From Pseudooceanicola algae (GTDB taxonomy: Bacteria; Pseudomonadota; Alphaproteobacteria; Rhodobacterales; Rhodobacteraceae): DNA of 64,000 nt. The notes beneath the pieces are model-generated. The model saw only the letters and a program-made list of their open reading frames with translations, was not told the origin of the DNA and did no database searches. The stretch covers positions 2,328,001 to 2,392,000 of the forward strand of contig NZ_CP060436.1 of NCBI RefSeq assembly GCF_003590145.2, in the 5' to 3' direction. A program made the translations under genes and the position numbers. Below, in pieces: positions 1 to 18,840 of this stretch; positions within the stretch are counted from its first letter, which is position 1, and each line of letters begins with the position of its first letter.

Positions 1-1586
1 GTGATGATCCTGTCGAGACGCTGGGACAGGGCTTCGTCGAGGTAAGGCAAGGGCTGTTCGAAGACCTCCATCAGGTCAAGTGCTTCAAGCACCCTCTCAT
101 CTGCAGAACCGGCAACGACCATTCGCCATATACCAATCCTGCCCACGGTCCGATCTTTCATGTAGGCAATCAGCCCGCCGGAGCGGAGGCGGTCAAGGCG
201 ACCTATGAGCTGATCGATACGCGAGGCTTGCCATGGCAGGTTGTAGAAGATCATGTCCTCGGCGAAGTTATGCAGGTTGAGACCTGCTTCGACAAATTCC
301 TCCATGATCAGGACAGTCGCCTCACTTTGGACGGCACCGACTACATGCACCAGATCAGTGTTGTAGCGACCACGCATGGTTGCGATGCCACCTTCAGAGA
401 GGTGCGGGAACATTTCGGACAGACGCCGTTCCAGCATGTCGACGGTGGGCGTGTCGCCCGCGACGATGATGATACGCCGCTCTGGATCTTTGTGCCAATA
501 GCCGAGCAGCACGTCGCACAGGTCGTCGAACAACGCGTTGCCGGGATTGCGCGACAGGGTGGTCTCCACCTCGTCCCGCAAGTCCTGGTGGGCCGAGAAG
601 GTTCGGTGGCGCAGCATTTCGCGTAGGCTGGATCCAGCACGGAACATCTGACGGCATTGTAGCCAAGGGGCCGACCCTATCGGATTGTCCCGACCGTCCC
701 GGCAGGCTGCATTTTGCAGTTTTATCTTCGGCACCTCTGCATCGGACGGCGCGGTACGGACAGTGTGAACCTTTCGCGTAGGCGCCATCCCTGGCCATTG
801 GCTTCGCGTCTGACGAAGGATTCGGCGATCCGCCGCGAAAGCGGTCCTGTAGGCCGCGGCGGAGAGTGTGCCGTCGGAAACGTGCGCCTGCGCCGCAGCG
901 GCGTCTTCCGACAGGAATTCCAAGGGCTCGCGGCCGAGGAGGTTGGCGATTTCCGAGCGTTCCGGTTCGATCGCACCGATGACAGCGCGGGCCCAATCGC
1001 GATTGCCCAGACGCGGCGTTGCCGTCAGCAGCAGGACATGTCTGAACCGTGGCGCGTCGCGACGCTGACGCTCCCGGCACAGACTGGAAAGGAATGCCGC
1101 GTCTTCGAGGTTCATGGCGTGGATCTCGTCCACGATCAGCATGTCATAGCCCTCCGGAGAAGGACGTGCCGGTTGCCTGCGGACCATGTCTGCTTTGATC
1201 AGGTGGACATAGCCTTCGCCATCGGGATGCTCCTGCTCTTCATCTGCGTCAGTCAGGATGGGGGCTGATATGTGGCCGCGCGCCGAAAGCTCAACCTGCC
1301 ACTGGTAGCAGATGCGTTCCGGTGCGACGATTGCCACCCTTAAAGACGGGTCCCGCCTGCGCAAGATATTAAGGATCATCAAAGCCTGCACCGTCTTACC
1401 CATGCCGACCTCATCGGCGAGAAGGTGACGGATTTCCGTGTCCGCAAGGATGCGGCGTAGGTTGGCGATCTGATGTGGGTAAGGGTCGGCCGCGACGCCG
1501 AGGGCGCCACCCATCTCCCAAGACTCAGCTGCGACGAGGCGTTCTAGGGCGTGAAAGCCCGACTGGGCAAGATGAAAGCTATTCAT
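1..1586 (-). CDS. RapA/SNF2-type DEAD-like helicase, partial (C-terminus beyond window)
   Basis: About 528 residues are visible, read on the minus strand from ATG at 1586 to the window edge without a stop; the 3' end is missing. The translation begins MNSFHLAQSGFHALERL and shows SF2/SNF2 helicase motifs in order: Walker A LADEVGMGKT at about residues 56-65, motif II DEIH near residue 150, motif III LTATP, and motif VI QLIGRLDR near the visible end. The ADEVGMGKT form is typical of RapA-like SNF2 translocases, the class that also supplies DrmD in class 1 DISARM. The start codon overlaps the stop of the 979-residue upstream gene by 4 nt (ATGA), so the two are almost certainly translationally coupled. 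The likely role is an ATP-driven DNA translocase of the defence island; the DrmD equivalence is inference. The middle, about residues 230-300, is poorly recognisable. Confidence 0.85.
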   Translation of the reverse strand, partial: MNSFHLAQSGFHALERLVAAESWEMGGALGVAADPYPHQIANLRRILADTEIRHLLADEVGMGKTVQALMILNILRRRDPSLRVAIVAPERICYQWQVELSARGHISAPILTDADEEQEHPDGEGYVHLIKADMVRRQPARPSPEGYDMLIVDEIHAMNLEDAAFLSSLCRERQRRDAPRFRHVLLLTATPRLGNRDWARAVIGAIEPERSEIANLLGREPLEFLSEDAAAAQAHVSDGTLSAAAYRTAFAADRRILRQTRSQWPGMAPTRKVHTVRTAPSDAEVPKIKLQNAACRDGRDNPIGSAPWLQCRQMFRAGSSLREMLRHRTFSAHQDLRDEVETTLSRNPGNALFDDLCDVLLGYWHKDPERRIIIVAGDTPTVDMLERRLSEMFPHLSEGGIATMRGRYNTDLVHVVGAVQSEATVLIMEEFVEAGLNLHNFAEDMIFYNLPWQASRIDQLIGRLDRLRSGGLIAYMKDRTVGRIGIWRMVVAGSADERVLEALDLMEVFEQPLPYLDEALSQRLDRII

Positions 1587-4522
1587 GTAAGGTCAACATT
1601 CGTCATAGCGCGATAGCGCAAGGCAGCGTAGCGAACGGCACGCGCGGTGGATCGGTCAGCGCCGAAGCGCAGCAATCTGCCCCGCCATTCCGGGTCATCC
1701 ATGACCCGCTCCGGCGCCAAAAAAAGGTGCAACAAGGCTCGCAGGTCGGCCGGTGTTATCCAGCGCCCGCTCCGGGACTCAACATCGAGATGGCTGGACA
1801 CCAAGGCGGCAATCAGGTCGTCCAGATGGCTGGATTCATATGGCAACCGTTCGAGGCTTTCCGCGCGCTGCGCCGGCAGCACGAGTGCGGACAACTCGGG
1901 AAGGCGCGCCGCTTCACGGGCGCGTGCCACGAGCTTTTGCCAGCTGCCATCAGCATTGCCAGCGTCGAATTCGAGCTCAGCAGCTCCATCGGACATCGCT
2001 TTCTTCGAAAGCTTCTCCCACGCATCGAGAACCGCATCGTCCATGTCGGGCCACATGTCTCCGTCGGGAATGACGACAAGGTCCGGCGCAGGCAATATTT
2101 GGCGAAAACTCTCTTCGAGATAGCCGGCGAGTTCGTACTTCTGAACGTCATCCAGCGGTGAGAAAGCTGTTGTGCCACAGACCAGATCGGCCTGCATGGC
2201 TTCGGTAACCAGCCGCCGGTGAAAGCCCGTTCCAAGTCCGCGACAGGACTTTTCCCTCTTGATCCAGAGATCACCACAGAGCGCGGCTACAAGCCTATCT
2301 TCTAGTTTTCGGCGGGCATTGGATCGAAGACCTTCTCCTACTGCTGATCCTGCCGAGGCGAGGCTCCAGCTGACATAGGCCTCAAAGCCTACGGTAAGGC
2401 CGTGTGCATAACCTTGGGTTTCCGTGACGCGCTCAACCGGATCTGCTATGGCTCTGGGGATGCTGCTGAGTAGCGTGCCGGCTTCGGGTTCCACCAGAAT
2501 GCAACTGCGTAGCGCACCGTCGCTTCCCCCGGCTGGACGGAGAAGGCCGTATCCAGATGTCAATGCTGAGGACGAGGTTGCGCCAAGCACAAACGCCGTG
2601 CTCGAGATCACGGGATCGCAGATGAGCGCCTCCAGCGTCTCTTGTCCTTCCGCTGTCCATTGTGCGCTTCGGCGATCAAATTTCCATTCTGGCTCCGGAG
2701 TCGCGAGTGACCACGCGTTTCTGTCCAGCCCATTTGCTCGGACCTCAAGACGGGCGTACATGCCACCTTTGGTCCAAAGACGGGCCACGGTCCGGATGTC
2801 GGCAAATTCGGGGCGATCAAAAGCGATCCTGACAGGCGCACTCGGCGTGAGGATGCGTACGGTACGGGATAGGCCACTACTGGAACTCAACGTGATGTCG
2901 AGGACCATGTCGTGCAGGGTGATCGGTGTTGACAGATGCAGCGCGCCAGCACCGCGCGCGATCTCTGAAAGGCCGATTCCATCAGGCTGGAGGGATAGTC
3001 TTACAGGCGCAGGCGGTTCGATATCGCGGAAAACCAAGTCGATCGGGGCAACTTTGGACGTGTCGAGCGGCGACAGTGACCAGATCCCCTCGGTCATCGG
3101 CAAAATGTGCCATCGGTCGTCTGGGAGACGGAATTCGGTACTTTCAGTCTGGTCGAGACGCTCGGCAAAGATTGTAATAGGTGTTCTCGATCGGGCCTGG
3201 ACCGGTCGTCCCGAGGCCTGGCTTACGGTGGAACCATCGTGGCGCAGGGTCAGGCCGCCCAGGAAGTCAACGAATGGTTCAGCTTCCACGTGGATGCCGT
3301 GCCGGGCCAAAACTGCATCGCCCTCCGGTGTCCCGCTGCTGAAGTGGTACAGCCCGTCCCCCCAACCATCGAGGGCCCGTCCTTCAAGAACCATCTCGTA
3401 AAAATAGATGCCCGGCGTCACCCAGTCCGTGGGTCTGAGCTGTGTTTGATATCCGTCGTCACCCTCGTCTTGGAAGAGCAATCCCGGCGCGGGAACGATG
3501 ACGCGTTCCAGCCAGGCCGGTGCCTCAATTCCGCTGATCTGCGGGCGGGGAACCTCTTCGAGCGGACGTCCGATGAAGACGGTATCACCGCAGAGGAAGC
3601 GCTCAAGGGTTGTAGAACGCGCGCCAACAGTGACCGTTGATTTTGACAAGTGAGCACCGACTCCTGACCTGACTGCTTCGAGTTCGGCGGGGGTGAGGCT
3701 TGGCCCTCTTACGGCCAAGCCACGGGCCTCCGCGTCATCAAGCAGGAGTTCGTATGTTGCCTTGGGAAGACGTTCCACGCCCTGATGCTCAGCAAGACGC
3801 CTCGCCCGGATGACGCGTTCGAGACGCTTGACCTCACTTTCCGATCTCAAGTCATTGGTCAGGCGCTGCAGGAAGCCTGCTTCCATACCCAAGTCGCCTG
3901 TTCCGCCGGTGACTAGATGGCGGATTACGGGCAGCACAAGGTCGTCATCCTGCAGCCAGGATTCCAGCCGTCGTGAACCGAAGCCACGGGCAAGCTCTTT
4001 CAGTCCCGGCAACGCCGCGTTCGTCACTTTCGGATTACCGGTTTGAATCAAGAACTCTCTAACTAGACGTGCCAGGGAGCCATGGACCTCTCGAGGAACC
4101 ATGGCATTTCGGACGGGCCATGCAATGTGAGGAAAGGCTGCCGACCAGGCATCATCCAGAGGTCGCGCGGCTCCGAACTCTATTGCACAATCCCGGAACA
4201 GATCGGAAATTTCGCTGCGTTGTGGAATTGGAATGTCGACCTTGATTGCTGACTCAACTAATGGCCAGAAATCGGTCCCTGTACCCCTGTATTCATAGCC
4301 GATCTCGGTCACGACTACGCAAAGCGACAGCGCAAATTCCTGCCATGCCCGCCTGGTGAGCTGATGTAACGCAGCACGCTGGCTGACAATGTACATCAAT
4401 TGCTCGATTGCGTCGCGATCGAGGCCGTGTTCAATCAGATATACAGCTCCGCCATCCCGCTCCCGGGACAGGTCTGAAAAAATCTGCGCCAGCAGATTCT
4501 CACTGGCAACCAAGTCATTCAT
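1583..4522 (-). CDS. Large conserved-looking protein of unknown function (979 aa), defence island
   Basis: I do not recognise a family. The protein begins MNDLVASENLLAQIF and is soluble in appearance, with no signal peptide or membrane segment. It has a helical N-terminal half (about residues 1-290), a middle part rich in beta-like segments (about 300-640), and a mixed alpha/beta C-terminal third ending in a basic stretch (YAALRYRAMTNVDLT). No Walker motif, PLD HxK motif, HNH or DEAD box was found. It is first in a two-gene minus-strand operon and overlaps the SNF2-type helicase start by 4 nt, which argues for an obligate partner or loader of that helicase. It is divergent from the UvrD-like/DrmA/DrmB operon across about 106 bp. 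The long uninterrupted frame, sensible composition and coupled downstream gene make it a real gene. Function is not assigned. Confidence 0.82.
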   Translation of the reverse strand: MNDLVASENLLAQIFSDLSRERDGGAVYLIEHGLDRDAIEQLMYIVSQRAALHQLTRRAWQEFALSLCVVVTEIGYEYRGTGTDFWPLVESAIKVDIPIPQRSEISDLFRDCAIEFGAARPLDDAWSAAFPHIAWPVRNAMVPREVHGSLARLVREFLIQTGNPKVTNAALPGLKELARGFGSRRLESWLQDDDLVLPVIRHLVTGGTGDLGMEAGFLQRLTNDLRSESEVKRLERVIRARRLAEHQGVERLPKATYELLLDDAEARGLAVRGPSLTPAELEAVRSGVGAHLSKSTVTVGARSTTLERFLCGDTVFIGRPLEEVPRPQISGIEAPAWLERVIVPAPGLLFQDEGDDGYQTQLRPTDWVTPGIYFYEMVLEGRALDGWGDGLYHFSSGTPEGDAVLARHGIHVEAEPFVDFLGGLTLRHDGSTVSQASGRPVQARSRTPITIFAERLDQTESTEFRLPDDRWHILPMTEGIWSLSPLDTSKVAPIDLVFRDIEPPAPVRLSLQPDGIGLSEIARGAGALHLSTPITLHDMVLDITLSSSSGLSRTVRILTPSAPVRIAFDRPEFADIRTVARLWTKGGMYARLEVRANGLDRNAWSLATPEPEWKFDRRSAQWTAEGQETLEALICDPVISSTAFVLGATSSSALTSGYGLLRPAGGSDGALRSCILVEPEAGTLLSSIPRAIADPVERVTETQGYAHGLTVGFEAYVSWSLASAGSAVGEGLRSNARRKLEDRLVAALCGDLWIKREKSCRGLGTGFHRRLVTEAMQADLVCGTTAFSPLDDVQKYELAGYLEESFRQILPAPDLVVIPDGDMWPDMDDAVLDAWEKLSKKAMSDGAAELEFDAGNADGSWQKLVARAREAARLPELSALVLPAQRAESLERLPYESSHLDDLIAALVSSHLDVESRSGRWITPADLRALLHLFLAPERVMDDPEWRGRLLRFGADRSTARAVRYAALRYRAMTNVDLT

Positions 4523-4628
4523 CTTTTCATTTCGTCACGCAGACGCCAATAATGGTACTACATGCTTGAAGCGGTTCGCGGTGATTTTCAATAGGCATGT
4601 CATTACTTTAGGTCGGGTACAACGTGGA
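4523..4628. promoter_or_regulatory. Divergent intergenic region between the two defence operons
   Basis: This 106-bp gap separates the start of the 979-residue gene (minus) from the preferred start of the UvrD-like gene (plus). It is AT-richer than the surrounding coding sequence and must carry both promoters if both operons are transcribed locally. I could not place convincing -35/-10 boxes or an operator palindrome. Confidence 0.35.
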
Positions 4629-6935
4629 ATGCTAAACACTGATTTCGACTCGGTGGACGCCGTCGCCCGCGGTCAAAAACTGGCCGCACAGTTGCGCAGG
4701 GATATCCATGATCTCGGGGCGGTGCCGATTTCCCGGGTAGTCGCCGGTCTACGAACATTTGCCATAGCCGAAGGCGTGTCCGAGGCGGCAGCAAAACAAT
4801 GGGCACAGGCTCTCGTGTCGGTTCTGGTGGCCTGCGGTGATCTTGGTTCCGGCAAGTCGTACGGCGAGCCGGTCTTGGTGAAACGAAGGTCGGTGTCGGT
4901 GCTGATCCAAGGGGATCGGTGCATCCTGCTTGGGGGCGATCCGTCCCAAGGCGAACCTCATGGCCTGCTGCGAACAACGGATGTGGTCCCCGCAGATGCG
5001 GTCAGTTTCCATGACAGGGTCGGCGAGCTTTCAGATGATGATGTCGCTGGTCTCTGGCAGGTCTTGGACGCAGGAGTCTGGTTGTTGGGTGGGACTTCTT
5101 CAAGCGGCGTGACACGCGTGCTTGGTCTTGCTGGCGTCGTGCCAGACCTGACGATCCCCCAGGAAACATCAGCTTGGCTCAGGGAGTATTTTCCTTTACC
5201 CCGGACGGGCGAGAATGCTGCTGATCCATCACAAGCTGCAGTCATCGACAGTTCAGCAAGTTTGCGACAGATCGTTACCGCCGGCCCGGGAAGTGGCAAG
5301 ACACATACCGCCACGGAACGGGTCATACATCTTGTGCAGCAAGGCCTGCCACCTGCCGGAATTCGCCTCATCACCTTTACTCGCGTCGCAGCTGAAGAGG
5401 TGGGGGGGCGCATCTCGCAGGCTCTTGTGGACTACTCTTATTCCGGCGGCGTCACGTGTGGTACGATTGACTCTCTCGCGTGGAACTTGGTGACTACACT
5501 TGGGGATGCCCCGTCCGGGGGACACGAGCGGATCGTTCGTGTTGCTCGAAAAGCGATTTCAGACGGCGATCAGGCGATGCTGGATCTGCTGACGGGAATT
5601 ACCCATCTGGTGATCGACGAAGCCCAGGACATCGTTGGGGAGCGACGCATGTTTTGTAGCGCTTTGATCGATGCGCTGCCAATGAACGTTGGAGTAACAA
5701 TACTGGGCGACGGGGCACAGGCGATCTACGGATCGTGGGCGGGCGACAAAGGGGGTGATGGGTCCCTGCATGCCGAGTTCAGAGGCCGCGCCGGCTGGGA
5801 AGACCGAACCCTTACGGCAAACCATCGGACAAAGTCAGACAGTCTGCGGCGTTTCTTCGCACAAGCGCGGGCGCTACTCGAAGCCAACGGTGATCCGCGT
5901 TCGACTTATCTCGAAATTCGGGAAATGCTCGAAGACGTTGCGACGGATCCGAATGTGAGCCTGACCGGACCGGTCTTTCCGTGGCGGGATGACAGTTTGA
6001 TCCTTTTCCGGGGCCGAGCTGCAACCGAGGTCGCGTCAGCCCGATTGACTCGGGCAGCCCGGACACACCGTTTGAAACTGTCGGGACAAACAACTGTTTG
6101 CGATCCGCTGGTGGGCGTGATGTGCGCGGGGCTTGCACCCGGTGCTGCTGTACGTCTTGAGCATGTGCGCCGGCGACTTGCGGACCTTCATCCCGCGCCG
6201 TTTGGTCTGACGGAAGAGGACGTGCTTTCGGACATTCAGTCCCTCGGGAATGGACCGACGGCGCGCCTTCAGGACATCGCGGAGGCTGTTGAACGGGAGC
6301 CGGTGGCGCACACGCGCGATCATGTCGGCACTGCAGGTCCGCTGCTTGGCTCCATACATGGAGCAAAGGGGCGTGAAGCATCGAACGTACTTCTCATGCT
6401 GCCTCCGGTTCCGACTGGTGATGATGTCGACTGGCAAGAGGAAACCCGCGTTCTGTTCGTAGGGGCGACGAGGGCATCGACACACCTGTATCTGGGCAGG
6501 GCGCGGCCGGGTTTGGTTCGTCCTGGAAAGAATGGAGGCAGATGGATGCGCGGAAGCGGCGGCGGCCTCCTGCTGTCCGGGTCGGAAGGGCTGAGATCGC
6601 TTGGCGGGGTGGCCCCGGCCTTGGAGGTTTGGGAGGCAGCAATCCGGCAACCCAGTTGCTCGTTCCGGCGCAGCGACACAGGTGAGGAGGCGCTATGGCA
6701 CCTCTTCACAGACAGTGGGGAGACGTTGGCTCAAGTTGATGGCCCGCTGAGTGCCGACCTCGATTACCTCGCGTCCGGTCGGGGCGGCCTCGCTGCAGGC
6801 ACAATACGCGTGGTCGGTGCAACAACCGTGGTTGACCGTCGAAACGATGGCAGGATTCAAGAGGTGACTCTGCTGCCGGTGCTTCAGGGCGTCGTGCGGG
6901 GTGCCGGGAGTAAGGACGATCAAGATGACCAGTAA
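4629..6935 (+). CDS. UvrD/Rep-like superfamily 1 helicase of the defence island
   Basis: Product of 768 aa from ATG 4629 (MLNTDFDSVDAVARGQ). The frame stays open upstream to 4389, but that part is antisense to the 979-residue gene and non-protein-like, so I reject it. SF1 motifs are clear: Walker A TAGPGSGKTHTATERV at about residues 220-235, motif II HLVIDEAQDI, GDGAQAIYGSW (motif III-like), and a C-terminal GSIHGAKGREASNVLL followed by EETRVLFVGATRAS, the canonical UvrD motif V/VI region. The first roughly 200 residues are not recognised and may be a substrate or partner module. The stop lies inside the start of the DrmA-like gene (11-nt overlap), so it heads the plus-strand operon. Probable role: ATP-dependent 3'-5' DNA unwinding during defence. 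UvrD-like proteins are not core DISARM components, which makes this placement unusual. Confidence 0.87.
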   Translation: MLNTDFDSVDAVARGQKLAAQLRRDIHDLGAVPISRVVAGLRTFAIAEGVSEAAAKQWAQALVSVLVACGDLGSGKSYGEPVLVKRRSVSVLIQGDRCILLGGDPSQGEPHGLLRTTDVVPADAVSFHDRVGELSDDDVAGLWQVLDAGVWLLGGTSSSGVTRVLGLAGVVPDLTIPQETSAWLREYFPLPRTGENAADPSQAAVIDSSASLRQIVTAGPGSGKTHTATERVIHLVQQGLPPAGIRLITFTRVAAEEVGGRISQALVDYSYSGGVTCGTIDSLAWNLVTTLGDAPSGGHERIVRVARKAISDGDQAMLDLLTGITHLVIDEAQDIVGERRMFCSALIDALPMNVGVTILGDGAQAIYGSWAGDKGGDGSLHAEFRGRAGWEDRTLTANHRTKSDSLRRFFAQARALLEANGDPRSTYLEIREMLEDVATDPNVSLTGPVFPWRDDSLILFRGRAATEVASARLTRAARTHRLKLSGQTTVCDPLVGVMCAGLAPGAAVRLEHVRRRLADLHPAPFGLTEEDVLSDIQSLGNGPTARLQDIAEAVEREPVAHTRDHVGTAGPLLGSIHGAKGREASNVLLMLPPVPTGDDVDWQEETRVLFVGATRASTHLYLGRARPGLVRPGKNGGRWMRGSGGGLLLSGSEGLRSLGGVAPALEVWEAAIRQPSCSFRRSDTGEEALWHLFTDSGETLAQVDGPLSADLDYLASGRGGLAAGTIRVVGATTVVDRRNDGRIQEVTLLPVLQGVVRGAGSKDDQDDQ

Positions 6936-10065: not shown

Positions 10066-11822
10066 GCAAGAACGTCGGCAGCATTCGCCGCAGTCAGATC
10101 ATTTCGACCTTCGGTCCAGGGGCAATCGTTGATTTCCGTCTGCCGGGAAGCGGGGCGCTGCTCTCGGGGGTCATGCAGGGTTTGGAGGCCTGGGAGGCCT
10201 ACACGAAAGGTGGCTACAAACAGGATGTGGTGCGCGAACCGAGACTCGAAGCGCTCTTGGGCGTCGACCATTTCCGGGCTCCGCCGGTAGGAACTTACCT
10301 GAAGGGCGGGCAAAAAAGGGATCGCGTGCTCCCGATAGAACGGTTTCCGGATTGGCTGTCCTGTCCCGAGTGCCACGTCATCAACCGGTCGGGGCAATGG
10401 GCACCATCGCGGAACCGCGATAGCCTGCATTGTGGCCAATGCCGGGGGAAGCCTGCAGTGCTGCCTGTGCGTTTCATCGCTATTTGCGAAAAAGGGCACC
10501 TTGATGATTTTCCCTGGACTTCCTGGCTGACGCACGAGCCTGGGTGTTCCCGGCCAGTTCTGGCATTGAAGAGCGTCGGAGCAGGCATCGGAGGGCTGTT
10601 GCTGACCTGCAAATCCTGTGGTGCGGGGCGTTCCATGGCCGAAGCATTCTCACCCAAGGGTATTCCGAAGCACAAATGCGGCGGTGGCCGACCGTGGCTT
10701 GGCGGACGCCAATCGGGATGTGAGGCGGCGCCGCGGATCACGCAGCGGGGCGCGAGCAACGTCTATTTCTCAATCGAGCAGAGCGCGATAACCCTTCCCG
10801 ATTGGAAGGTGTCCTTCAGGGAGAAGATCGCCGACTTCGTCGACATGCTCGATTTTCTCGACGATGAAGACATGCGGATCGCATTCATCGCAAAGAAGAT
10901 CCTGCCGACTTGGGACGGCCCCGACACCGCCGAAGAAATCGCACGTCGCTTTAGGGAGATGAAGGAAGGCAATTCTGGAAGTGAAGGGGATCTGCGGCTG
11001 GACGAGTTCCGGATGCTGCTGACGGATACTTCTGAGTTTGACGAAAGCGCGATGATTTTGCTGAACCGCCAACAACCCGTTCCTCACACATTGTCGGGGA
11101 TGATCTCCTGGATTTCGTCGGTGGAAAGGCTTCGAGAAGTGCGTGCCCTGACCGGGTTCACGAGGCTGAAGGCGCAGGTAGCTGGCAAGCCGGATGCTGT
11201 GCCGCTGTCTCGATCAGGTCTGTCGTGGCTGCCAGCGTTAGCCTTGCATGGGGAGGGCGTATTCCTGTCGCTGGACCTGGATGCCGTGTCTGAATGGGAA
11301 AGTCGGTCGGATGTTGTCGAACATCTGGCTCATCTGATCCAGACATATGTGGATAGTGCTCGGGCCGAAGGAAAGCAGGTGGATGGCGCGCCACAGCAAC
11401 TCAACGCACGGTACATACTGATCCACACTTTGGCGCATGCGTTGATCGCGCGCCTGTCGCTCGACAGCGGGTATTCCTCGAGCGCACTGCGTGAGCGCCT
11501 TTATGTTGGACCGGAAATGGCCGGATTGCTGATCTACACCTCGACGCCGGACGCAGACGGAACAATGGGAGGGCTTTCGCGGCAAGCGCGACCGGCTCGC
11601 ATGGAGCAACTGGTGCTTCAGGCGCTGGCCGACCATGAGCTCTGCTCCGCTGATCCGCTATGCTCCGAAGGAATGGCGCGCAGCGGCTCGAACGGCAACC
11701 ACGCGGCCTGCCATAACTGCATGTTTCTTCCTGAAACCAGTTGCGAGGCGTGGAATGGCTTTCTTGACCGGAGCTTGTTGAGCGCGGGACCGCTCTCGTT
11801 CTTCAAAAGTCTGGGCGAGTGA
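10062..11822 (+). CDS. drmB: DUF1998 protein, DISARM DrmB-like
   Basis: Product of 586 aa; its ATG overlaps the drmA stop (ATGA), indicating coupling. The N-terminus (SIRRSQIISTFGPGAIVDF) is the typical opening of DrmB proteins. Cysteine clusters follow (CPECHVI, CGQCRG, CKSCGAG). The C-terminal DUF1998 part contains ILIHTLAHALIARLSLDSGYSSSALRERLYV, GLLIYTSTPDADGTMGGLS, and a terminal Cys motif HNCMFLPETSC. In characterised DISARM, DrmA and DrmB form the core complex that engages DNA and requires the methylation arm to spare host DNA. DrmC, the phospholipase-D-like third core protein, is not found in this window, although it could lie to the left. The gene ends 54 bp from the convergent EcoRII-N-like gene. 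Confidence 0.9.
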   Translation: MSKNVGSIRRSQIISTFGPGAIVDFRLPGSGALLSGVMQGLEAWEAYTKGGYKQDVVREPRLEALLGVDHFRAPPVGTYLKGGQKRDRVLPIERFPDWLSCPECHVINRSGQWAPSRNRDSLHCGQCRGKPAVLPVRFIAICEKGHLDDFPWTSWLTHEPGCSRPVLALKSVGAGIGGLLLTCKSCGAGRSMAEAFSPKGIPKHKCGGGRPWLGGRQSGCEAAPRITQRGASNVYFSIEQSAITLPDWKVSFREKIADFVDMLDFLDDEDMRIAFIAKKILPTWDGPDTAEEIARRFREMKEGNSGSEGDLRLDEFRMLLTDTSEFDESAMILLNRQQPVPHTLSGMISWISSVERLREVRALTGFTRLKAQVAGKPDAVPLSRSGLSWLPALALHGEGVFLSLDLDAVSEWESRSDVVEHLAHLIQTYVDSARAEGKQVDGAPQQLNARYILIHTLAHALIARLSLDSGYSSSALRERLYVGPEMAGLLIYTSTPDADGTMGGLSRQARPARMEQLVLQALADHELCSADPLCSEGMARSGSNGNHAACHNCMFLPETSCEAWNGFLDRSLLSAGPLSFFKSLGE

Positions 11823-11876
11823 GTAGGCCGATCCGGCAGTGACCCTCGGCCATACGGTTTTCTGGTCGGCCGGGAT

Positions 11877-12311
11877 TCAATGTACGCGGCGCCAGCCAGC
11901 AGAAATCTTGATGCGGACGGGGGATTCGTCGACCTGTTCACTGACTTCCTGCATGGCGGGTACTACGTCGATCAAGTAACGGGGCGCGCCTTCTTCCTTG
12001 GATATCTCAAATGTGTCACCTTCCCTAGCCCCTTCTGTCTTGAAGTAGTTCGTCAGGTGCGTGATCCGGTATTCGTTCCGTGTCCCCTTGGGTTTGTGCA
12101 AGCGGTTGTTGTAATAGACGTAACGCAGACGCAGTTCGCGCCCGTCCGGTGTCACGCAAGTGATCCATTCGCTCGGGTTGTATTCTTTGGGGTCCAAGGG
12201 GGGAAGGAAAGCCAGAAGCTCGTCGTCGCTTTTAGGAATGTGGATTCCGGCCATATGAGCTCCGGTTGCCCCTACATCGTTCGCAGTCAGCGGTTTGGAG
12301 AATTTCTTCAT
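11877..12311 (-). CDS. Free-standing EcoRII-N-like DNA-recognition domain protein
   Basis: Product of 144 aa starting MKKFSKPLTANDVGATGAHM. The segment LTANDVGATGAHMAGIHIPK matches the N-terminal effector-binding (B3-like) domain of restriction enzyme EcoRII, where the equivalent reads like LSANDTGATGxHQAGI. In EcoRII this domain contacts the CCWGG site and is followed by a PD-(D/E)xK nuclease of about 200 residues. Here the protein stops after the reader fold and there is no catalytic domain. It is last in the minus-strand operon; its start codon shares one base with the stop of the SNF2 helicase (TGATG). Together with the Dcm-like methylase and Vsr upstream, the most economical reading is a site-specificity subunit that senses unmethylated CCWGG and directs the helicase/nuclease partners. 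Family resemblance is seen; the role is inferred. Confidence 0.8.
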   Translation of the reverse strand: MKKFSKPLTANDVGATGAHMAGIHIPKSDDELLAFLPPLDPKEYNPSEWITCVTPDGRELRLRYVYYNNRLHKPKGTRNEYRITHLTNYFKTEGAREGDTFEISKEEGAPRYLIDVVPAMQEVSEQVDESPVRIKISAGWRRVH

Positions 12312-14131
12312 CAGGACTTTCCGTTGGGAGTCATCTGGAGTGCCCGGGTCAGATCCTCGGTGTCGCGGATCGCTAAGGGCATGGTTTCGTTCGCCAGTTC
12401 ACTTTTCCAAGTCGATCGTTCGATCATCACTTGTTCTACCGTGTCTTCGTAGAACAGACGGTAGATGGTGACTGGCACGGTCTGGCCGCGGCGGTGCGCG
12501 CGTGCGCTGGCCTGCGCTTCGAGTGCGGGGTTCCAGAGGGGCGTGAAGTGAATGACGATGGTTGCGGCGGTGATGTTCAGCCCTGCGCCTGCGGCGCGCG
12601 GATTGAGCACGAGGCAGGCCGGACCGTCAAAGGACGAGAACTTATCGACGATGGCCTGGCGATCTTCCTGGGCTGTGCTGCCGTTGATGGCGCCCCACCA
12701 CGCGGTGGGAAGGTCACGCCCGGCTTGCTCAAGAAGGTCTCCGATCCTGTTGAAGGAAGCGAAGACGATCACTTTGCGCCGGTTAGTGAATGCTTCGCGC
12801 AGAAGCGCAATGGACCGCTCCATCTTCGGAGTCATCAGCGGCGCTGCATCACTTGCAACGAGATCGGCGTCGTCGTGATCCTGCACATCGTCGCGGCTCT
12901 GCAACCATGGGTGGGCACAGAAGAGCTGCAATTGCATCGTAGCAACCAGCGCGCCGGCCACCGGATACTTCTCAAGGGTTGTCTGCCGGACCAGCTCGTA
13001 TTGCCGGGTAAGGTCCTCGTCGAGCAAAACGGGCAGGTCGACGTCGATCCGTTCTGGCAGGTCGCCTGCCACATAGGCGACCCGCCGTTTCAGGATGACT
13101 GGGTCGGTCAGCCGCGCTAGGCTTTGAGCTGCTTCCACAGTGTCTGGATATTCGACCTTGAAGACATCCTGCTCGCCGAGCATTCCGGGCACCGCCAAAT
13201 CGATCAGTGACCAGAGGTCGAGAAGGGTGTTCTCGACTGGTGTACCAGTCATAGGAATCGCGCAGCGTCTTGGAATGGTGGCCAGTGCCTGACGCCGGCT
13301 TGATTCCGGGTTCTTGACCGCTTGCGCTTCGTCAGAGATCACCCAGGACCATTCCAAGGACGACAACACAGCAATGTCGTTCACCATCGTGTCGTAGGTC
13401 GTGATGACGACGGAGGCGACCTGCAGATCACGGAAGATGCCGGCCCGATACGCGCCTCGATGCACCAGAATGGTGAGCGACGGTGCAAAGCGGCGGATCT
13501 CTCGGACCCAGTTGGCAATCAGGCTTGTCGGGCAGATGATGAGCGCGGGCGCACTGTGCGGAGGTGGATCCATCATGAGCAGTGCGATGATCTGCAGGGT
13601 TTTTCCAAGGCCCATTTCATCCGCGAGGATCAGGCCACCGGTCCGCTTGGCGGTCTGCCACATCCACTGGACGCCACGGGCCTGAAACGGAAATAGCTTC
13701 GCGTTCAGCCCGGCGATGGACATTTCAGAGCCAAGGTCATCTGCCGCAATAGTGCCAGATCGGAGTACTTCCTCATCGGCGTCGACCGCGATCAATTCGT
13801 TTGGCTCCTGCGTGAGCCTTATGCCCAAGGCAAACGGGACATCCTGTGGATCGGCACCTTCGAGGACTTCGGCAACCAGATCGGGTGCATCCTGCGGAAG
13901 AGGCCGGATCGTATTTCCATCCAGCACCCAGGCATGGCGGGCTGAAGGGGCCTCGATGAAGCTCTGCACGCCGCGAAGCGTCCGAATGCCACCCAGCCGT
14001 GCCGCAAGGCACACAGGTCCGTTGCTGATCCGGAGGGCGGGATCAAGGACCCGCTGAGAAACGCTAAAGCGGTCGCCGAATTCAGCTACAACCGCTTCAA
14101 ACGTGAAGGGCATGTCAGCCGGTGTGGTCAC
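12311..14131 (-). CDS. SNF2-family DNA helicase/translocase
   Basis: Product of 606 aa from GTG 14131, which overlaps the HNH gene stop by 4 nt (GTGA); an ATG at 14113 is the alternative. An N-terminal region of about 140 residues precedes the SNF2 core: Walker A ILADEMGLGKTLQ at about 168-180, motif Ia CPTSLIANWVREI, motif II SDEAQAVKN, motif III MTGTPVENTLLDLWSLIDL, and in the second lobe FASFNRIGDLLE, LNPRAAGAGLN and motif VI ARAHRRGQTVPVTIYRLF. This is the Rad54/SSO1653-like bacterial form, different from the RapA-like helicase at the left edge, so the island has two SNF2 types. It sits between the HNH nuclease and the EcoRII-N-like reader in one coupled operon. A motor that moves from recognised sites to the cleavage point would fit, but that is inference. 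Confidence 0.9.
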   Translation of the reverse strand: MTTPADMPFTFEAVVAEFGDRFSVSQRVLDPALRISNGPVCLAARLGGIRTLRGVQSFIEAPSARHAWVLDGNTIRPLPQDAPDLVAEVLEGADPQDVPFALGIRLTQEPNELIAVDADEEVLRSGTIAADDLGSEMSIAGLNAKLFPFQARGVQWMWQTAKRTGGLILADEMGLGKTLQIIALLMMDPPPHSAPALIICPTSLIANWVREIRRFAPSLTILVHRGAYRAGIFRDLQVASVVITTYDTMVNDIAVLSSLEWSWVISDEAQAVKNPESSRRQALATIPRRCAIPMTGTPVENTLLDLWSLIDLAVPGMLGEQDVFKVEYPDTVEAAQSLARLTDPVILKRRVAYVAGDLPERIDVDLPVLLDEDLTRQYELVRQTTLEKYPVAGALVATMQLQLFCAHPWLQSRDDVQDHDDADLVASDAAPLMTPKMERSIALLREAFTNRRKVIVFASFNRIGDLLEQAGRDLPTAWWGAINGSTAQEDRQAIVDKFSSFDGPACLVLNPRAAGAGLNITAATIVIHFTPLWNPALEAQASARAHRRGQTVPVTIYRLFYEDTVEQVMIERSTWKSELANETMPLAIRDTEDLTRALQMTPNGKS

Positions 14132-14961
14132 AAGATGCCAGCCTTGCCCATTGGATCAGCCATCAATTCGACAACTTCCTCCAGGGACCACGGTTCGGGT
14201 CGGCGTGTATGCACGGCGCGGTGACAATTCGGACAGAGAGGGGCGAGGTCGCGTGCCGGGTCATATGGGCGCGGCTCTTTCAGGAGCGAAAGCGGTTCGA
14301 GATGGTGGACCTCGATGATGCTGCCAGCCACGCCGTATGTCTCGCGCGGATCAAGCCCGCAGCAGGCGCAAACTTCGCCGTGCAACCTGATGCAAAGGAG
14401 CCGATTTCTGGGGTTACGTTCCCGGCGCCTGACCGTTGTGAACAGTTCCGCCCCTTCGTATTCGGGCTCGCCGTGGTCGTCCTCCTCGATGACGTCATAC
14501 CCGATCAGTTCGGCCATGGCGGCCATCATGGGCACGATCGTGTCGCGGCTGACCTCGGTCAGTGCGACCTCGGGGTCCCGCGGAAGGTTCCGGATGATGG
14601 CAGTCATCCGGAAATCTCCAGTGGTGATCTTCCAATCGGCCATCTCCTGTCCTTGGACTTCAACCTCCACAGAACTGTCGACGGACGCGACGAGGGCCCG
14701 CGCCAGATGGACATCCTCGGACCCGGCACCAGCGATCCGTCGCACGACCTCACCCGCAAATGCGCCAAAGCCCAGCGTAACGGCGTAACCCTTCAGGCCG
14801 TAGGGACGCATCTCGGCCACGGGACCGTACCGCTCTTCGAGGTCCGCAAACCATATCCGCAGGCCGGTCCGCGACTTCGACCCGTCAACGGCCATGCCGA
14901 TCGCAGCGCCGGTTCCGGCCTCCAGTTCTTCCCGAATGAGGGTTTGGCGGGCTGACAGCAT
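14128..14961 (-). CDS. HNH endonuclease with uncharacterised N-terminal domain
   Basis: Product of 277 aa from ATG 14961, one base after the stop of the GHKL ATPase gene; a TTG at 14976 would add five residues and overlap that gene. The C-terminal HNH module is clear: a zinc pair CACCG, the ββα-metal core SIIEVHHLEPLSLL, then LAPLCPNCHRAVHTRRPEPWS with the second zinc pair CPNC and the final His. The N-terminal roughly 190 residues (AAIGMAVDGSKSRTGLRIWFADLEERYGP...) are not assigned. Their position, in front of a nuclease in a modification-linked operon, suggests a DNA- or modified-base-reading domain as in McrA/MrcB-type enzymes. This is the most obvious effector nuclease of the island. Its stop overlaps the SNF2 start, so HNH and SNF2 are coupled. 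Confidence 0.86.
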   Translation of the reverse strand: MLSARQTLIREELEAGTGAAIGMAVDGSKSRTGLRIWFADLEERYGPVAEMRPYGLKGYAVTLGFGAFAGEVVRRIAGAGSEDVHLARALVASVDSSVEVEVQGQEMADWKITTGDFRMTAIIRNLPRDPEVALTEVSRDTIVPMMAAMAELIGYDVIEEDDHGEPEYEGAELFTTVRRRERNPRNRLLCIRLHGEVCACCGLDPRETYGVAGSIIEVHHLEPLSLLKEPRPYDPARDLAPLCPNCHRAVHTRRPEPWSLEEVVELMADPMGKAGIL

Positions 14962-14962
14962 A

Positions 14963-16591
14963 TCAGTCTTCGTCAAGCTCGGTCAGTTCCGCCGAGGTTG
15001 GGTCCGGGAGATTGCGGAGCAGCTTCTTGAGGTTGGACGAGATCTCCTCGCGAATGTCCTCGAACACAGGCTCCAGTTCCGGATCTGTGTTATTCTGCTC
15101 TGCCATCGCGAAGGCGTACAGGAGTAGGTCCATACCCTCCACGGCATATCCGCTGGCAGCAGCGCGCTGGTAGATCTTCTGGTAGAAGTCATGATGCTTG
15201 TTCAGCAGAACCCCCGGTACGTGGTCCGAAACACCTGGGCTACGGTACGCTGGCTCGAAGAGGTGCCCGCTGGTGATCGTCGTGACCGCCTCGACATAGA
15301 TCGCCTCCGGATTGACGTGCTCCTGAACGGGCACCTTGATGCGGATCTTAACACCACGCCGGTTGTTGACCTCGACGGTCTGGCTTGCCGGATCCGCGCT
15401 TGCCACTTGGGGCTTGGAGACATTCGCCGTCGCCGCGATGTTCTTGTTAGAGCTTCCGTGGTCGATCGTTGTCCTCTTGTTGGCATCGTCGCGGGTGATA
15501 CGGCGATACCGGTTGCCGGCTTCGCGGTAGACCGGTTGGAGAAGGCTGCGAAGCCCATCTTCCAGTTCCGGATGGAACAGGATCCGAGACTTCTTCACGT
15601 CGATGCGGAAGGCCTCGTCCAATTCATGAGTGAAATCGAATTCAATGCGCAGGAGCGACGTATGGGGTTCGGGTGCGCCAAATACGTCCAGCCAGCCACC
15701 ATCCTGAATGAGGCGTCCCTCGCGATAGACATAAAAGCCCTGCGCACGGTTCGAAATACGCGCGAATTGGGCTTCTTCTTCCTTTGTCATGTCGCGGCGG
15801 TGAGGCAGGATCCACGCCTTGATCCCTGCTTCCGCTTCGCTGCAGTCGGGCAGCTCGACAAGTATCCGCTGTTTCGACTCTGCGAGCACCTGATCCGAGC
15901 GGGTTGGATAGAACGGGTTCCATGCAGGCACATCGACGCCATTGATCCGGATGGCAACATGTCGTTCGCGTTCGTCACATGTGTCGAGAAACCGATGAAA
16001 GACCAGCGCGACGTGCTTGCCCAAGGTCTCGGCCAGCCGTTTGATTGCCGCCTTTTCCTTTGAACCGGGGTCGTAGTCCTTGGAAAGGATCCGATCGCAG
16101 TTTTCCCAGACGACAAGCGTCCCGGTATCCCCGCAAAGTTCCTCGAACATGTCAGCCTGATCGGACGTCACCGGATCGTCGAGCATTTCCCAGATATTCT
16201 GTGCCTCGACATGTTCTAGATCCCAAGTCAGCTTGGACAACTCTTGGTCCGCTGACTTCCTCGAAATCAGGCTGTAACGCTTGCAGACCGAACTTGAAGC
16301 CGTTTTTAGCCCCAGCCCGAACTTCCCGAGGCTCTTGGCGTCGGAACGCTTGTCGGCACCGTAGCGCATCGCATTGCGAACCTCATCGCGGGTCATGCCC
16401 TGACCATCATCACCGAAATAGACGATCTTCCGGCCGTCATGCATCAACTCGATGTTGATGTTCACCGCGTTGGCTCCGGCTGCGATCGAGTTGTCGATGA
16501 TGTCGGCTGCTGCGGTCTTGACGTTGTAACCCGTGTCACGAAGCCCGACGATGAGGCGCGCGGCATTCGGATCGTTGATGAGGTCGTTCAT
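14963..16591 (-). CDS. GHKL (MutL/MORC/Hsp90-like) ATPase
   Basis: Product of 542 aa. The Bergerat ATP fold is complete: N-box AADIIDNSIAAGA at about residues 28-40, G1 box DDGQGM at 61-66, and G2 box GKFGLGLKTAS at 89-99. An S5-like transducer region follows (DQVLAESKQRI...LPHRRDMTKEEE...YREGRLIQDGGW). GHKL ATPases of this kind occur in bacterial restriction-modification clusters related to the origin of MORC proteins, often beside SNF2 helicases, HNH and Vsr-type nucleases. It probably acts as an ATP-operated clamp that couples site recognition to nuclease activation; no mismatch-repair endonuclease motif is seen. The gene lies 12 nt after the Vsr gene and 1 nt before the HNH start. The acidic tail (ELTELDED) is unusual but harmless. 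Confidence 0.88.
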   Translation of the reverse strand: MNDLINDPNAARLIVGLRDTGYNVKTAAADIIDNSIAAGANAVNINIELMHDGRKIVYFGDDGQGMTRDEVRNAMRYGADKRSDAKSLGKFGLGLKTASSSVCKRYSLISRKSADQELSKLTWDLEHVEAQNIWEMLDDPVTSDQADMFEELCGDTGTLVVWENCDRILSKDYDPGSKEKAAIKRLAETLGKHVALVFHRFLDTCDERERHVAIRINGVDVPAWNPFYPTRSDQVLAESKQRILVELPDCSEAEAGIKAWILPHRRDMTKEEEAQFARISNRAQGFYVYREGRLIQDGGWLDVFGAPEPHTSLLRIEFDFTHELDEAFRIDVKKSRILFHPELEDGLRSLLQPVYREAGNRYRRITRDDANKRTTIDHGSSNKNIAATANVSKPQVASADPASQTVEVNNRRGVKIRIKVPVQEHVNPEAIYVEAVTTITSGHLFEPAYRSPGVSDHVPGVLLNKHHDFYQKIYQRAAASGYAVEGMDLLLYAFAMAEQNNTDPELEPVFEDIREEISSNLKKLLRNLPDPTSAELTELDED

Positions 16592-16603
16592 CTTCCTGCT
16601 CTT

Positions 16604-17074
16604 TCACTTCGGACGAGAGCCGGACTTTCCATCCAGACGTGAGAAGAAGTCCTGCTCTGAAATGCTGGCCTCTTTTTCGCGGCTCTCCAACCAATCTGCA
16701 ATCACCGATATCAGGAGATCTTCTGATACTTGGCGCGTTGCGCATTCCCATACAGTTAGGATGCGCCATCCGGACTGTGCAAGGCGTTGTAGGACCATAG
16801 CATCCCTTTCCTGGTTCCGCCCTATCTTGGCTTGCCAGAAATCAGTATTTGTCTTGGGGATGCGAAAATAATGGCACCCCTCGTGTCCGTGCCAAAAACA
16901 ACCGTGAACGAAAATCACGGTCCGGTATTTCGGCAGCACGATATCCGGCTTTCCTGGAAGTTCCTTGGTATGCAGGCGGTAGCGAAAGCCCAGACGGTGC
17001 AGTCCCTTGCGCACCATGATCTCGGGCTTGGTATCCTTGGGGCCGATCCGCGACATCATCGCGGATCGTGTCAT
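16604..17074 (-). CDS. vsr: Vsr-type very short patch repair endonuclease
   Basis: Product of 156 aa from ATG 17074 (MTRSAMMSRIGPKDTKPE). The frame extends upstream to 17257 but that part lies inside the methyltransferase gene and is not Vsr-like. Vsr hallmarks are present: MSRIGPKDTKPEIMVRKGLHRLGFRYRLH, LPGKPDIVLPKYRTVIFVHGCFWHGHEGC with the catalytic Asp and His residues, and WQAKIGRNQERD. The family nicks DNA at T:G mismatches that arise by deamination of 5-methylcytosine in Dcm sites, so it normally travels with a C5 methyltransferase, as here (10 nt downstream of it). In this operon it may simply protect methylated sites, or it may have been recruited as a nuclease; the intact active site permits both. 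Confidence 0.93.
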   Translation of the reverse strand: MTRSAMMSRIGPKDTKPEIMVRKGLHRLGFRYRLHTKELPGKPDIVLPKYRTVIFVHGCFWHGHEGCHYFRIPKTNTDFWQAKIGRNQERDAMVLQRLAQSGWRILTVWECATRQVSEDLLISVIADWLESREKEASISEQDFFSRLDGKSGSRPK

Positions 17075-17084
17075 GGGCGGCTTG

Positions 17085-18158
17085 TCAGGCACGCATCCCC
17101 CGTTTGGAGTGCAGTGCGACCGTGTTGGTGATCCAAGGGGCCATGGCTTCCGCGATGGCAATGGCAACCGGTGCGGCGACTGCGTTGCCAAACTGACGGT
17201 AGGCTTGTGTGTCAGAGACGACGATCTTCCAAGGTTGGTTCGACCCCTTTCGGTCAAACCCCATGAGCCTTGCGCATTCCCTTGGTGTCAGGCGCCGGGG
17301 CGTGCCGTGGTTCTGGGCGATCAGTATCTCGCTGCCATCCTTGTAGTAGCGGGCACTGAGCGTGCGGGCGACGTTGTGGGGCTGACACAGGCCAAATCCG
17401 AAACCATTTCCGGCTGCCTTATGCTTGGCAGCATAGTTCTGGAGGTATTTCCAAAGGTTGGGCGTGAGTGTGTATTTGTCGCCCACATTGGCCAAGGGGC
17501 CGGTAGTATAGGGTTCCTCAACCGTCTCTGAACCGTCTTGCGTGTGCAGGATGTCCGCAAGTGTCGGCGCAGGGCCTTGCGGGAGGATCACCTCGTCAAG
17601 GGAGAACGCGGCGGGCACGTCACGCCGGAAGCCGACGATAAAGATGCGCTCCCGGTGTTGCGGCACCCAGTGGCGCGCGTCGATCACCTTGTGGTCAACT
17701 TCGTATCCCAATTCATCCAAGGCGTGGAGAATGACGCGGAACGTGTTGCCTTTATCATGCGACAGGAGGTTCTTGACGTTTTCCAGAAGGAAAGCCTTCG
17801 GTTTGTGATGTCGCAGGATGCGAACCACATCAAAGAACAGTGTGCCCTGTGTCTCATCCGCGAACCCATGGGCCCGGCCCAGCGAGTTCTTCTTTGACAC
17901 CCCGGCAATGGAAAATGGCTGGCAAGGGAAACCGGCGAGCAGGACATCATGAGCGGGAATGTCACGTTCGTCGACTTTGGTGATGTCGCCGTTGATCTCG
18001 TGGCCGTCTTCAAAGTTCGCGCGGTAAGTCTCCTGCGAAAACTTGTTCCACTCGCTTGTGAATACGCAGGTTCCGCCAATCGCCTCGAAACCTATGCGCA
18101 GTCCGCCGATGCCCGCGAAGAGATCGATAAAATTGAAACCGTGTGAGACAGCGGTCAT
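17085..18158 (-). CDS. DNA (cytosine-5) methyltransferase, Dcm/M.EcoRII-like
   Basis: Product of 357 aa, first gene of the six-gene minus-strand operon. C5-MTase motifs: [17 protein letters not shown] (about 11-24), [13 protein letters not shown] with nucleophile Cys79, VI ENVKN near 126-130, [43 protein letters not shown]. The stretch [15 protein letters not shown] followed by [13 protein letters not shown] and [11 protein letters not shown] closely resembles Dcm/M.EcoRII, which methylate the inner C of CCWGG. Specificity is inferred from this resemblance plus the neighbouring Vsr and EcoRII-N-like genes. In DISARM class 2 a C5-MTase (DrmMII) marks host DNA; this gene could fill that role for the adjacent DrmA/DrmB pair. 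The short target-recognition region between motifs VIII and IX (about residues 190-270) should be compared with M.EcoRII. Confidence 0.93.
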
Positions 18159-18349
18159 GTGTGTTCTCCGGGTGATGTGCGCCTACAAACGAAAACAAGG
18201 GCCGCAAAGCACGGGCGCTACAACCCGTAGCCCATCTATGCCACGGAAAAAGTAACCGTCCAAGCTTACGATCAGGTTCACGGGCTCTTTGATGCTATGA
18301 GCACCGGAAATACTCCCGCGCGATGGTCGAGGCGACCCTACGCGAAGGA

Positions 18350-18712
18350 CGCCGCGTAGGGGTCGGCCTTCGCACGGCTCGGCTCACGCCTATCAAGCCG
18401 CTCGAGAGCTTCGACTTCTCATTTCAGCCATCCTTGCATGGCCACCGCATCATGGCACTCGCCCAGCAGGAGTTCATCAACCGCGCCGAAGTGCTGCACT
18501 TCCTCGGCCCGCCGGGCACGGGCAAGAGCCATCTGGCCACGGCTTGGGGCGCTGCCGCGGTCAAGACGGGCCGCAGCGTCTATCGCTGCACCCTGGCCGG
18601 GCTGATAGACGCGCTCGCGCAGGCCGAACGCGAAGGGCGACTCCCGGAGAAGATCCGCTTCTACGCGCGGGCTTCCCTGCTGGTCGTCGACGAGATCGGC
18701 TACCCTGCAACG
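18350..18712 (+). pseudogene. istB: Fragment of IS21-family istB helper ATPase
   Basis: About 120 residues of IstB are recognisable: TPIKPLESFDFSFQPSL, Walker A FLGPPGTGKSHLATAWG, GLIDALAQAEREGRLPEKIRFYARASLLVVDEIGY. The match ends abruptly after the Walker B/DEIGY motif and the frame continues into unrelated residues to a stop at 18760. Full-length IstB is about 250 aa, so both the N-terminal helical domain and the C-terminal half are missing. No istA and no inverted repeats are seen nearby. This is a relic marking recombination at the junction between the defence operon and the Tn7-like genes. Confidence 0.82.
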
Positions 18713-18840
18713 CACGCCGCGCGTGTCGGACCAACTGCCCCACGAACGGCGCGAGCTTGACCCTGACACGCGTTATCGCGAGTATTTTGCCACAGGCATG
18801 CTCTCAGTATAACGGCATCCTCAGACAGAAAGGGAAGCGC

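Follow-up and report, generated by a model that had tools for sequence, protein, structure and literature searches.

A DISARM-like helicase core and a predicted CCWGG restriction–modification operon form one block on a Tn7-like transposon of Pseudooceanicola algae

DISARM class 1 consists of DrmD, DrmMI, DrmA, DrmB and DrmC, and class 2 carries DrmMII. How DISARM-type systems separate self from non-self is unsettled, and structure-based and methylation-based models coexist. Methylation of CCWGG by DISARM has been reported (PMC5957327, PMC11676413). DrmAB is described as binding single-stranded and 5′-overhang DNA, with a lower ATPase rate on DNA carrying 5-methylcytosine (m5C), and a conserved DrmA valine is proposed as the methylation sensor; the same source describes DrmC, a phospholipase D (PLD) nuclease, as non-essential and often missing (PMC9142583). 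Here, we analysed a DISARM-like locus in a 64,000-nucleotide stretch of the P. algae genome (contig NZ_CP060436.1, positions 2,328,001 to 2,392,000; hereafter the window, to which coordinates refer unless the genome is named). In this locus, a helicase core with DrmA and DrmB (module A) is joined to an operon predicted to mark and restrict CCWGG (module B).

The eleven genes lie in three units. An SNF2 helicase gene and the gene for a 979-amino-acid protein (unit 1, minus strand) diverge from the UvrD, DrmA and DrmB genes (unit 2, plus strand), and an EcoRII-N/SNF2/HNH/GHKL/Vsr/Dcm operon (unit 3, minus strand) adjoins these convergently. Units 1 and 2, which contain no methylase gene, make up module A, and unit 3 is module B. 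This layout, which an earlier note on the same DNA had described with the same strands, was borne out by the open reading frames and by family searches, with UvrD, SNF2, HNH, GHKL (HATPase_c_3), Vsr, C5-methylase and EcoRII-N all above Pfam cut-offs among the eleven proteins. The two modules together form a conserved 19.5-kb block (window 1..18333; whole block approximately genome C1:2326787-2346333), which begins ∼110–175 bp before Dcm and stops where the SNF2 gene does.

The block is collinear in the window, in Salipiger mangrovisoli L015, in L017, L022, L023, L024 and L025, and in L016 as far as its sequence goes (read only from inside HNH on, with its Dcm out of view). Nucleotide identity to the window is 95.8% in L015 and ∼82% in L017, L022, L023 and L024, and over this divergence of ∼18% the block is uninterrupted in all copies read except L025, where a 1.9-kb gap has removed most of the 979-residue gene. 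The eight blocks fall into four lineages (window/L015; L017/L024; L016/L023/L025; L022) with 81–85% identity between them, and the identities of A and B covary (r = 0.96 over the 28 non-independent pairs of the eight genomes). Among the seven genomes other than L016, flank matches longer than 150 bp occur only inside lineages, namely the transposon in window/L015, 427 bp in L017/L024, and 4.7 kb on one side and 1.3 kb on the other in L023/L025, and no flank is common to different lineages. The two modules have therefore long been inherited together while their surroundings changed, although all eight blocks trace to one fusion. The earlier suggestion of one system, or two that cooperate, is strengthened by finding one block in eight genomes of four lineages, and it fails in its stricter form: a single unknown eleven-gene system is rejected, because the six B genes are found elsewhere in stretches with no A matches, and A is found beside other partners. 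The block also illustrates how distinct defence systems can fuse into larger units on transposons.

Module A starts with an SNF2/RapA-type helicase (DpdE/DrmD/BrxH-like; 1..1586, minus strand), whose gene continues 1.2 kb past the window edge and encodes 930 residues when complete (L002:1794-4586). Next to it is the 979-residue protein P0001 (1583..4522, minus strand), followed on the plus strand by a UvrD/GajB-like helicase (4629..6935; the frame is open from 4389 and the start at 4629 is a guess), a DrmA-like YprA-family helicase (6901..10065) and DrmB with its DUF1998/MZB zinc domain (10062..11822). The DrmA and DrmB assignments of the earlier note held. DrmB scored 465 bits against a cut-off of 240 for the NCBI family DrmB_fam, and its MZB domain 37.7 against 24.2 bits in Pfam. 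DrmA is a clear homologue that, at 810 bits, lies under the NCBI DISARM DrmA cut-off of 950. Both align to the solved structure 7s9v, DrmA over most of its length (E 4.9e-126) and DrmB with E 1.8e-73. In a tree of 21 DrmA proteins, which carried a long-branch warning and included DISARM of class 1 only, 13 A-type proteins and one from Rhizobium rhizogenes grouped together (14 rows, support 100/100), separate from three class 1 DISARM DrmA. An (L/M)RxV-like motif near the C-terminus is present in all 21 proteins and may hold the proposed methylation-sensing valine.

P0001 matched no Pfam, NCBIfam or PADLOC family, its 16 aligned relatives had no family in common, and its predicted model had no fold match in the PDB at E ≤ 0.001. 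The model is mediocre (predicted local distance difference test score 69.8, predicted template modelling score 0.37), with helical N- and C-terminal parts and a beta-rich middle, so that we assign it no fold; with neither a family nor a PDB match, naming of the protein was dropped. A scan of GTDB genomes for its relatives gave 31 loci: eleven at 67–95% identity, 17 at 25–34% and three that are Druantia-like. In a sample of the class, P0001 itself was matched in 4/385 genomes.

The window resembles DISARM in its DrmA and DrmB, homologous to those of 7s9v, in the presence of an SNF2 helicase and in a nearby C5 methylase with a CCWGG-type recognition region, CCWGG being the motif reported for DISARM. 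It differs in having UvrD and the 979-residue protein, and in that its methylase lies outside module A and varies between loci; its DrmA is below the DISARM cut-off and its clade is separate from the three class 1 DrmA, class 2 being outside the sample. Of the families listed for each of the eleven proteins (up to 25 apiece in PADLOC), none was a DrmC or PLD model, a comparison of these proteins and not a genome-wide DrmC search; an SNF2 protein gave weak matches to PLD-helicase models in the helicase part only. ARMADA, as far as PMC12458937 sets it out, likewise has a YprA-family helicase, a BrxH/RapA-like SNF2 protein and a GajB-like UvrD in one locus, but its YprA and DUF1998 are fused in one protein that ends in a Vsr-like nuclease, and its methylase is PglX-like, whereas DrmA and DrmB are separate genes in the window and the families listed for its proteins include no PglX model. 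Family searches did not place the locus in ARMADA, Dpd or MZA.

The 979-residue/SNF2 pair also occurs in Druantia type I-like loci (L009, L014, L039, L043, L044), which differ in carrying a fused DruE-like helicase (in L009, PADLOC DruE1 at 1528 bits) and NERD, DruD-like and DruA-like genes, with no C5-methylase or Vsr match in the flanks examined. The 979-residue protein is likewise found in Druantia-like L004, L005 and L141, with SNF2 present where the flank allows. DISARM-like and Druantia-like systems thus seem to have this pair in common.

Module B lies on the minus strand and comprises a stand-alone EcoRII-N domain, predicted to read CCWGG (11877..12311), an SNF2 helicase (12311..14131), an HNH endonuclease (14128..14976), the GHKL ATPase P0008 (MORC/paraMORC- and MzaB-like; 14963..16591), a Vsr endonuclease (16604..17074) and a Dcm-type cytosine-C5 methyltransferase (17085..18158). 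The Vsr frame is open to 17257, and the shorter start was taken because the annotated relative in L011 has 153 residues. Alignment placed a recognition region of the K-12 Dcm type in the window Dcm; K-12 Dcm recognises CCWGG, and we presume the same specificity here. The enzyme scored 443 bits to a DrmMII model compared with 501 to a type II methyltransferase model.

All six B genes are also present on a Pseudomonas putida plasmid (L010), with Dcm on the opposite strand, and on a Fuscovulum plasmid (L011), with no module A matches over the whole record of the former or 31.6 kb of the latter. Full-length GHKL relatives at ≥60% identity were found in 5/295 family genomes, all of which have a Dcm-like gene no more than 1 kb away; these were scored on GHKL and Dcm, and one is, by its coordinates, the Fuscovulum plasmid again (G516 contig 2). 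In a Rhizobium plasmid (L012), the B genes are rearranged, with SNF2, EcoRII-N, GHKL and HNH facing a type II enzyme–Vsr–Dcm set.

The combination of GHKL ATPase, SNF2 helicase, nuclease, methylase and Vsr makes B an operon of the MORC/paraMORC type. The text of Iyer 2008 (PMC2292703) names the same kinds of genes, namely GHKL ATPase, SWI2/SNF2, HNH or EcoRII-like nucleases, cytosine methylase, Vsr and a VP1/RAV-type DNA-binding domain; the likeness is one of gene kinds named there, rather than of exact set, order or MORC versus paraMORC type. The GHKL protein also resembles MzaB, at 198 bits far below the cut-off of 850, and no other Mza model is among the families shown. Such operons have been in the literature since 2008 (PMC2292703) and the six B genes are also present where no A matches are, so B counts as a known type that does not in general depend on A. 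The earlier note knew of no system with this gene set. We likewise found no description of the A+B set, or of a DISARM-like core with exchanged methylase modules beside it, in the open-licence literature searched, but both halves are of known kinds. Uncharacterised DISARM-like classes and an association of DISARM-like systems with McrBC are mentioned by Bell 2024/2025 (PMC11090510, PMC12458937), and these may cover part of this combination.

We then compared the neighbours of A across 31 A loci, comprising the window, 28 of the 31 scan loci and plasmids L007 and L008. Left out were the Druantia-like scan loci L039, L043 and L044, the Druantia-like L009 and L014, the partial DruA-type L004 and L005, L006 (a weak partial match), L013 (nearly a copy of L008, its frames broken), CP053207 (whose search values equal those of L008) and L139 (genome G617), one more A locus, whose 16.4-kb contig is too short for a verdict. 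A C5-methyltransferase lies within ∼6 kb of the nearest A gene (distances taken by hand from maps) in 22/31 loci, counting L016, whose Dcm is beyond the sequence read. At least five arrangements occur, on both sides of A: module B in eight loci (window, L015, L016, L017, L022–L025); Dcm–Vsr–EcoRII in three (L020 via L101, L041, L042; EcoRII-C matched); Dcm–Vsr–MvaI/BcnI in four (L008, L021, L030, L038); a large methylase with Vsr in L026, L028, L032 and L034, with only the end of such a methylase visible in L027; and a methylase, an McrC-like gene and Vsr in L007. L035 has a Dcm–Vsr neighbour. Vsr accompanies the methylase in 20 of the 22 loci, its place being beyond the sequence read in L016 and L027.

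Several partner methylases appear, from alignment, to point to CCWGG: the K-12 Dcm region is common to the Dcm of the window, L008, L010, L011, L018 and L020 and of L021, L030, L036, L038, L041 and L042. It is not in the L019 methylase or the large methylases, which have other recognition regions, and CCWGG as the target of every partner is not supported.

The Roseicyclus A locus (L020/L101) is split over two contigs within DrmA. The pieces are complementary, neither end continues as DrmA and the contigs are not joined; this DrmA may be broken, possibly by insertion. Among loci including some picked by hand outside the counts (L111, L112, L113, L114, L118), DISARM-like DrmA–DrmB lies close to a C5 methylase in L007/L110, L111, L112 and L114, with UvrD by DrmA in L007, L111 and L112 and a DUF2357 (McrC-like) gene and Vsr following in the same stretch in L110, L111 and L114; in L113 and L118 no C5 methylase is annotated next to DrmA.

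Controls were small and the loci are related. A Dcm-like match, defined as a best matching segment of ≥60% identity, was found in 10/10 genomes of the window's A clade (L016 not included) compared with 38/295 family genomes, a sample that includes A-bearing genomes, and in 1/3 Druantia-like genomes. None of the five Druantia-like loci with the 979-residue/SNF2 pair (L009, L014, L039, L043, L044) had a C5-methylase or Vsr match in flanks of at least 10 kb on both sides, with the large methylase as an extra query and the left side of L009 stopping at the record end. Thirteen family genomes have an HsdR match as well as a Dcm-like gene; in a comparison by eye that covered Dcm-like genes only, no listed pair lay within 20 kb; the weak pair in G661 is at 32 kb, and one further G579 match is not among the listed pairs. 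The 979-residue family was present in 5/295 family genomes; four of these matches are A loci (G000, G535, G617, G652) and the fifth is Druantia-like (G513). By coordinates, G535 is the L019 genome and G652 the L030 genome, so the samples overlap.

Based on reports that DISARM methylates CCWGG and that DrmAB responds to m5C, we proposed that module A reads the m5C of its neighbour. In this proposal, which in our judgement is about evenly poised between right and wrong, a DISARM-like core would rely for self-recognition on m5C laid down by a neighbour that can be exchanged, and the arrangement would have become permanent in this lineage. We infer each biochemical step, and the reading of the mark by A, from gene content. 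The block would act against phage through its two modules. Module A would be a DISARM-like helicase defence (DrmA–DrmB with UvrD, SNF2 and the 979-residue protein) lacking its own methylase. Dcm would place m5C on host CCWGG and Vsr would repair the T:G mismatches left by m5C deamination, while EcoRII-N would locate unmarked sites and the GHKL, SNF2 and HNH proteins would loop, move along and cut the DNA. DrmA–DrmB would load onto phage DNA that exposes 5′ ends or single strands, and would be triggered if m5C were absent. One m5C mark would protect the host from both modules, with B using it for CCWGG restriction, and A and B would have become a fixed travelling unit in this lineage.

Since A and B are inherited as one block, the window Dcm has the K-12 recognition region and most DrmA/DrmB relatives have a close C5 methylase, the shared CCWGG self mark put forward in the earlier note is plausible; module A also stands beside methylase modules of other kinds. 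A further step, which we entertain while leaning against it, is that a methylase-less DISARM-like defence parasitises the mark of an adjacent CCWGG or other m5C system and that the association reinforces itself, with A locking its partner in. If so, a host with A could not lose the methylase, and the helicase defence would evolve together with the restriction system into one unit with one self mark. A constant helicase core with differing methylase modules offers a natural series for asking whether and how such cores read m5C.

In favour of a borrowed mark are the collinear block in which A and B diverge in step although flanks differ between lineages, the C5 methylases of exchanged modules near 22/31 A loci but near 0/5 Druantia-like loci, and the Dcm-like matches in 10/10 genomes of the window's A clade against 38/295 in the family. 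Several observations weigh against it. The strongest is L019, together with four further A loci (L029, L031, L036, L045) that, like it, have no C5 methylase within ∼6 kb. In L019, A lies on a contig of 3.49 Mb that makes up nearly all of the 3.5-Mb genome, and the C5 methylase is 1.24 Mb from A; its overall identity is just 45%, and its recognition region is of another type; L036 has Dcm–Vsr–MvaI ∼23 kb away, and L031 and L045 only weak methylase-like matches at ∼25 kb. Four more loci (L018, L033, L037, L040) are cut by contig ends and not classifiable, and the large methylases beside L026–L028, L032 and L034 are, from their sequences, not assignable to CCWGG. Dcm-like matches fall to 10/17 genomes in the second A clade. 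B-type GHKL and the 979-residue family, each in 5/295 family genomes, coincide only in the window's own genome, and the two operons, whose co-occurrence the earlier note had set as its check, meet rarely in general and firmly in one lineage. The eight blocks derive from one fusion, and DrmAB has also been proposed to discriminate by DNA structure (PMC9142583).

These points fit two self-sufficient systems that travel together, with A discriminating by DNA structure, B acting as an ordinary CCWGG restriction–modification system and each helping the carrier. We regard this as a substantial possibility, somewhat short of even: B stands without A on the P. putida plasmid and over 31.6 kb of the Fuscovulum plasmid, 4/5 family genomes with B-type GHKL and Dcm have no 979-residue match, A occurs without B (in L019 without any linked methylase), and defence genes are reported as frequent Tn7-like cargo (PMC8649781). 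Independence sits less well with the recurrence of C5 methylases beside A in several arrangements but beside 0/5 Druantia-like loci with the same gene pair, and with the finding that no listed Dcm-like/HsdR pair lies within 20 kb.

An improbable alternative makes Vsr the link, its nicks feeding 5′ ends to DrmA–DrmB together with UvrD and the MutL-like GHKL protein, so that short-patch repair would have turned into defence. The 20/22 association of Vsr with the methylase, the UvrD and MutL/MORC-like ATPase within the block and the reported binding of 5′-overhang DNA by DrmAB (PMC9142583) would suit it, but Vsr accompanies Dcm anyway, as in K-12 dcm–vsr, and only B among the partner modules has a GHKL gene. 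We give hardly any credence to crowding in defence islands, in which C5 methylase–Vsr pairs are simply common and the block of eight genomes is a chance fusion hitch-hiking on mobile elements. Descent from one fusion, and some flanks that by eye seem to hold transposase, integrase or relaxase genes, agree with it; it is opposed by the variety of methylase neighbours, which stand on either side of A in five or more arrangements as against 0/5 Druantia-like loci, and by a block unbroken over ∼18% divergence in all copies read but L025.

The earlier note had placed a UvrD-like helicase and the Dcm operon where DrmC is missing, and a simple replacement by this operon did not hold. In the window clade, no NERD gene follows DrmB in 12/12 loci (L020 read via its second contig, L101), and L018, L019, L020 and L021 have neither NERD nor module B next to A in the sequence examined. 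In the second A clade, a NERD-helicase gene follows DrmB wherever readable, except in L045, and most relatives carry one. Because the window clade lacks NERD with or without the Dcm operon, replacement of a DrmC/NERD nuclease by this operon is ruled out as a general rule.

A Tn7-like transposon of 28.8 kb (genome C1:2324425-2353261), which the earlier note did not see and inside which the window begins, carries the whole A+B island. TnsA, TnsB, TnsC, TniQ, terminal inverted repeats and a target duplication are all present, and defence genes are described as common Tn7-like cargo (PMC8649781). The ends are 24-bp inverted repeats (left, genome C1:2324425-2324448; right, window 25238..25261) flanked on the outside at either end by ACCTG, itself part of a short repeated tract, and the left end lies 18 bp from a tRNA-Arg(tct) gene. 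TniQ is at the left end. At the right end, on the plus strand, are a TnsA-like endonuclease (20977..21768; below the Pfam cut-off), a TnsB-like transposase (21741..24038; assigned from a weak PADLOC TnsB match and its position between TnsA and TnsC) and a TnsC/TniB-like ATPase (24080..25054), which, like TniQ, is above its Pfam cut-off. In S. mangrovisoli L015, the related element has its corresponding end beside a tRNA-Arg(tct) gene as well, with GGACTGAA on both outer sides.

Between block and transposition genes, the plus strand holds an IstB-like gene, perhaps an insertion sequence remnant within the carrier (18323..18760), and an AAA ATPase with a Lon-like ATPase domain, common to L015 (19551..20696). 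Window 25259-25341 resembles genome C1:2324403-2324485 in the same orientation (74%), and this resemblance around both transposon ends is possibly the relict of an earlier insertion. In L023 and L025 (L094, L097), the block adjoins Tni/Tns-like genes, with TniQ- and TnsC-like matches of 23–26% in L094, and may have changed carriers. In Marivita L024 (L096), transposase genes that, judged by eye, look alike stand on both sides of the block.

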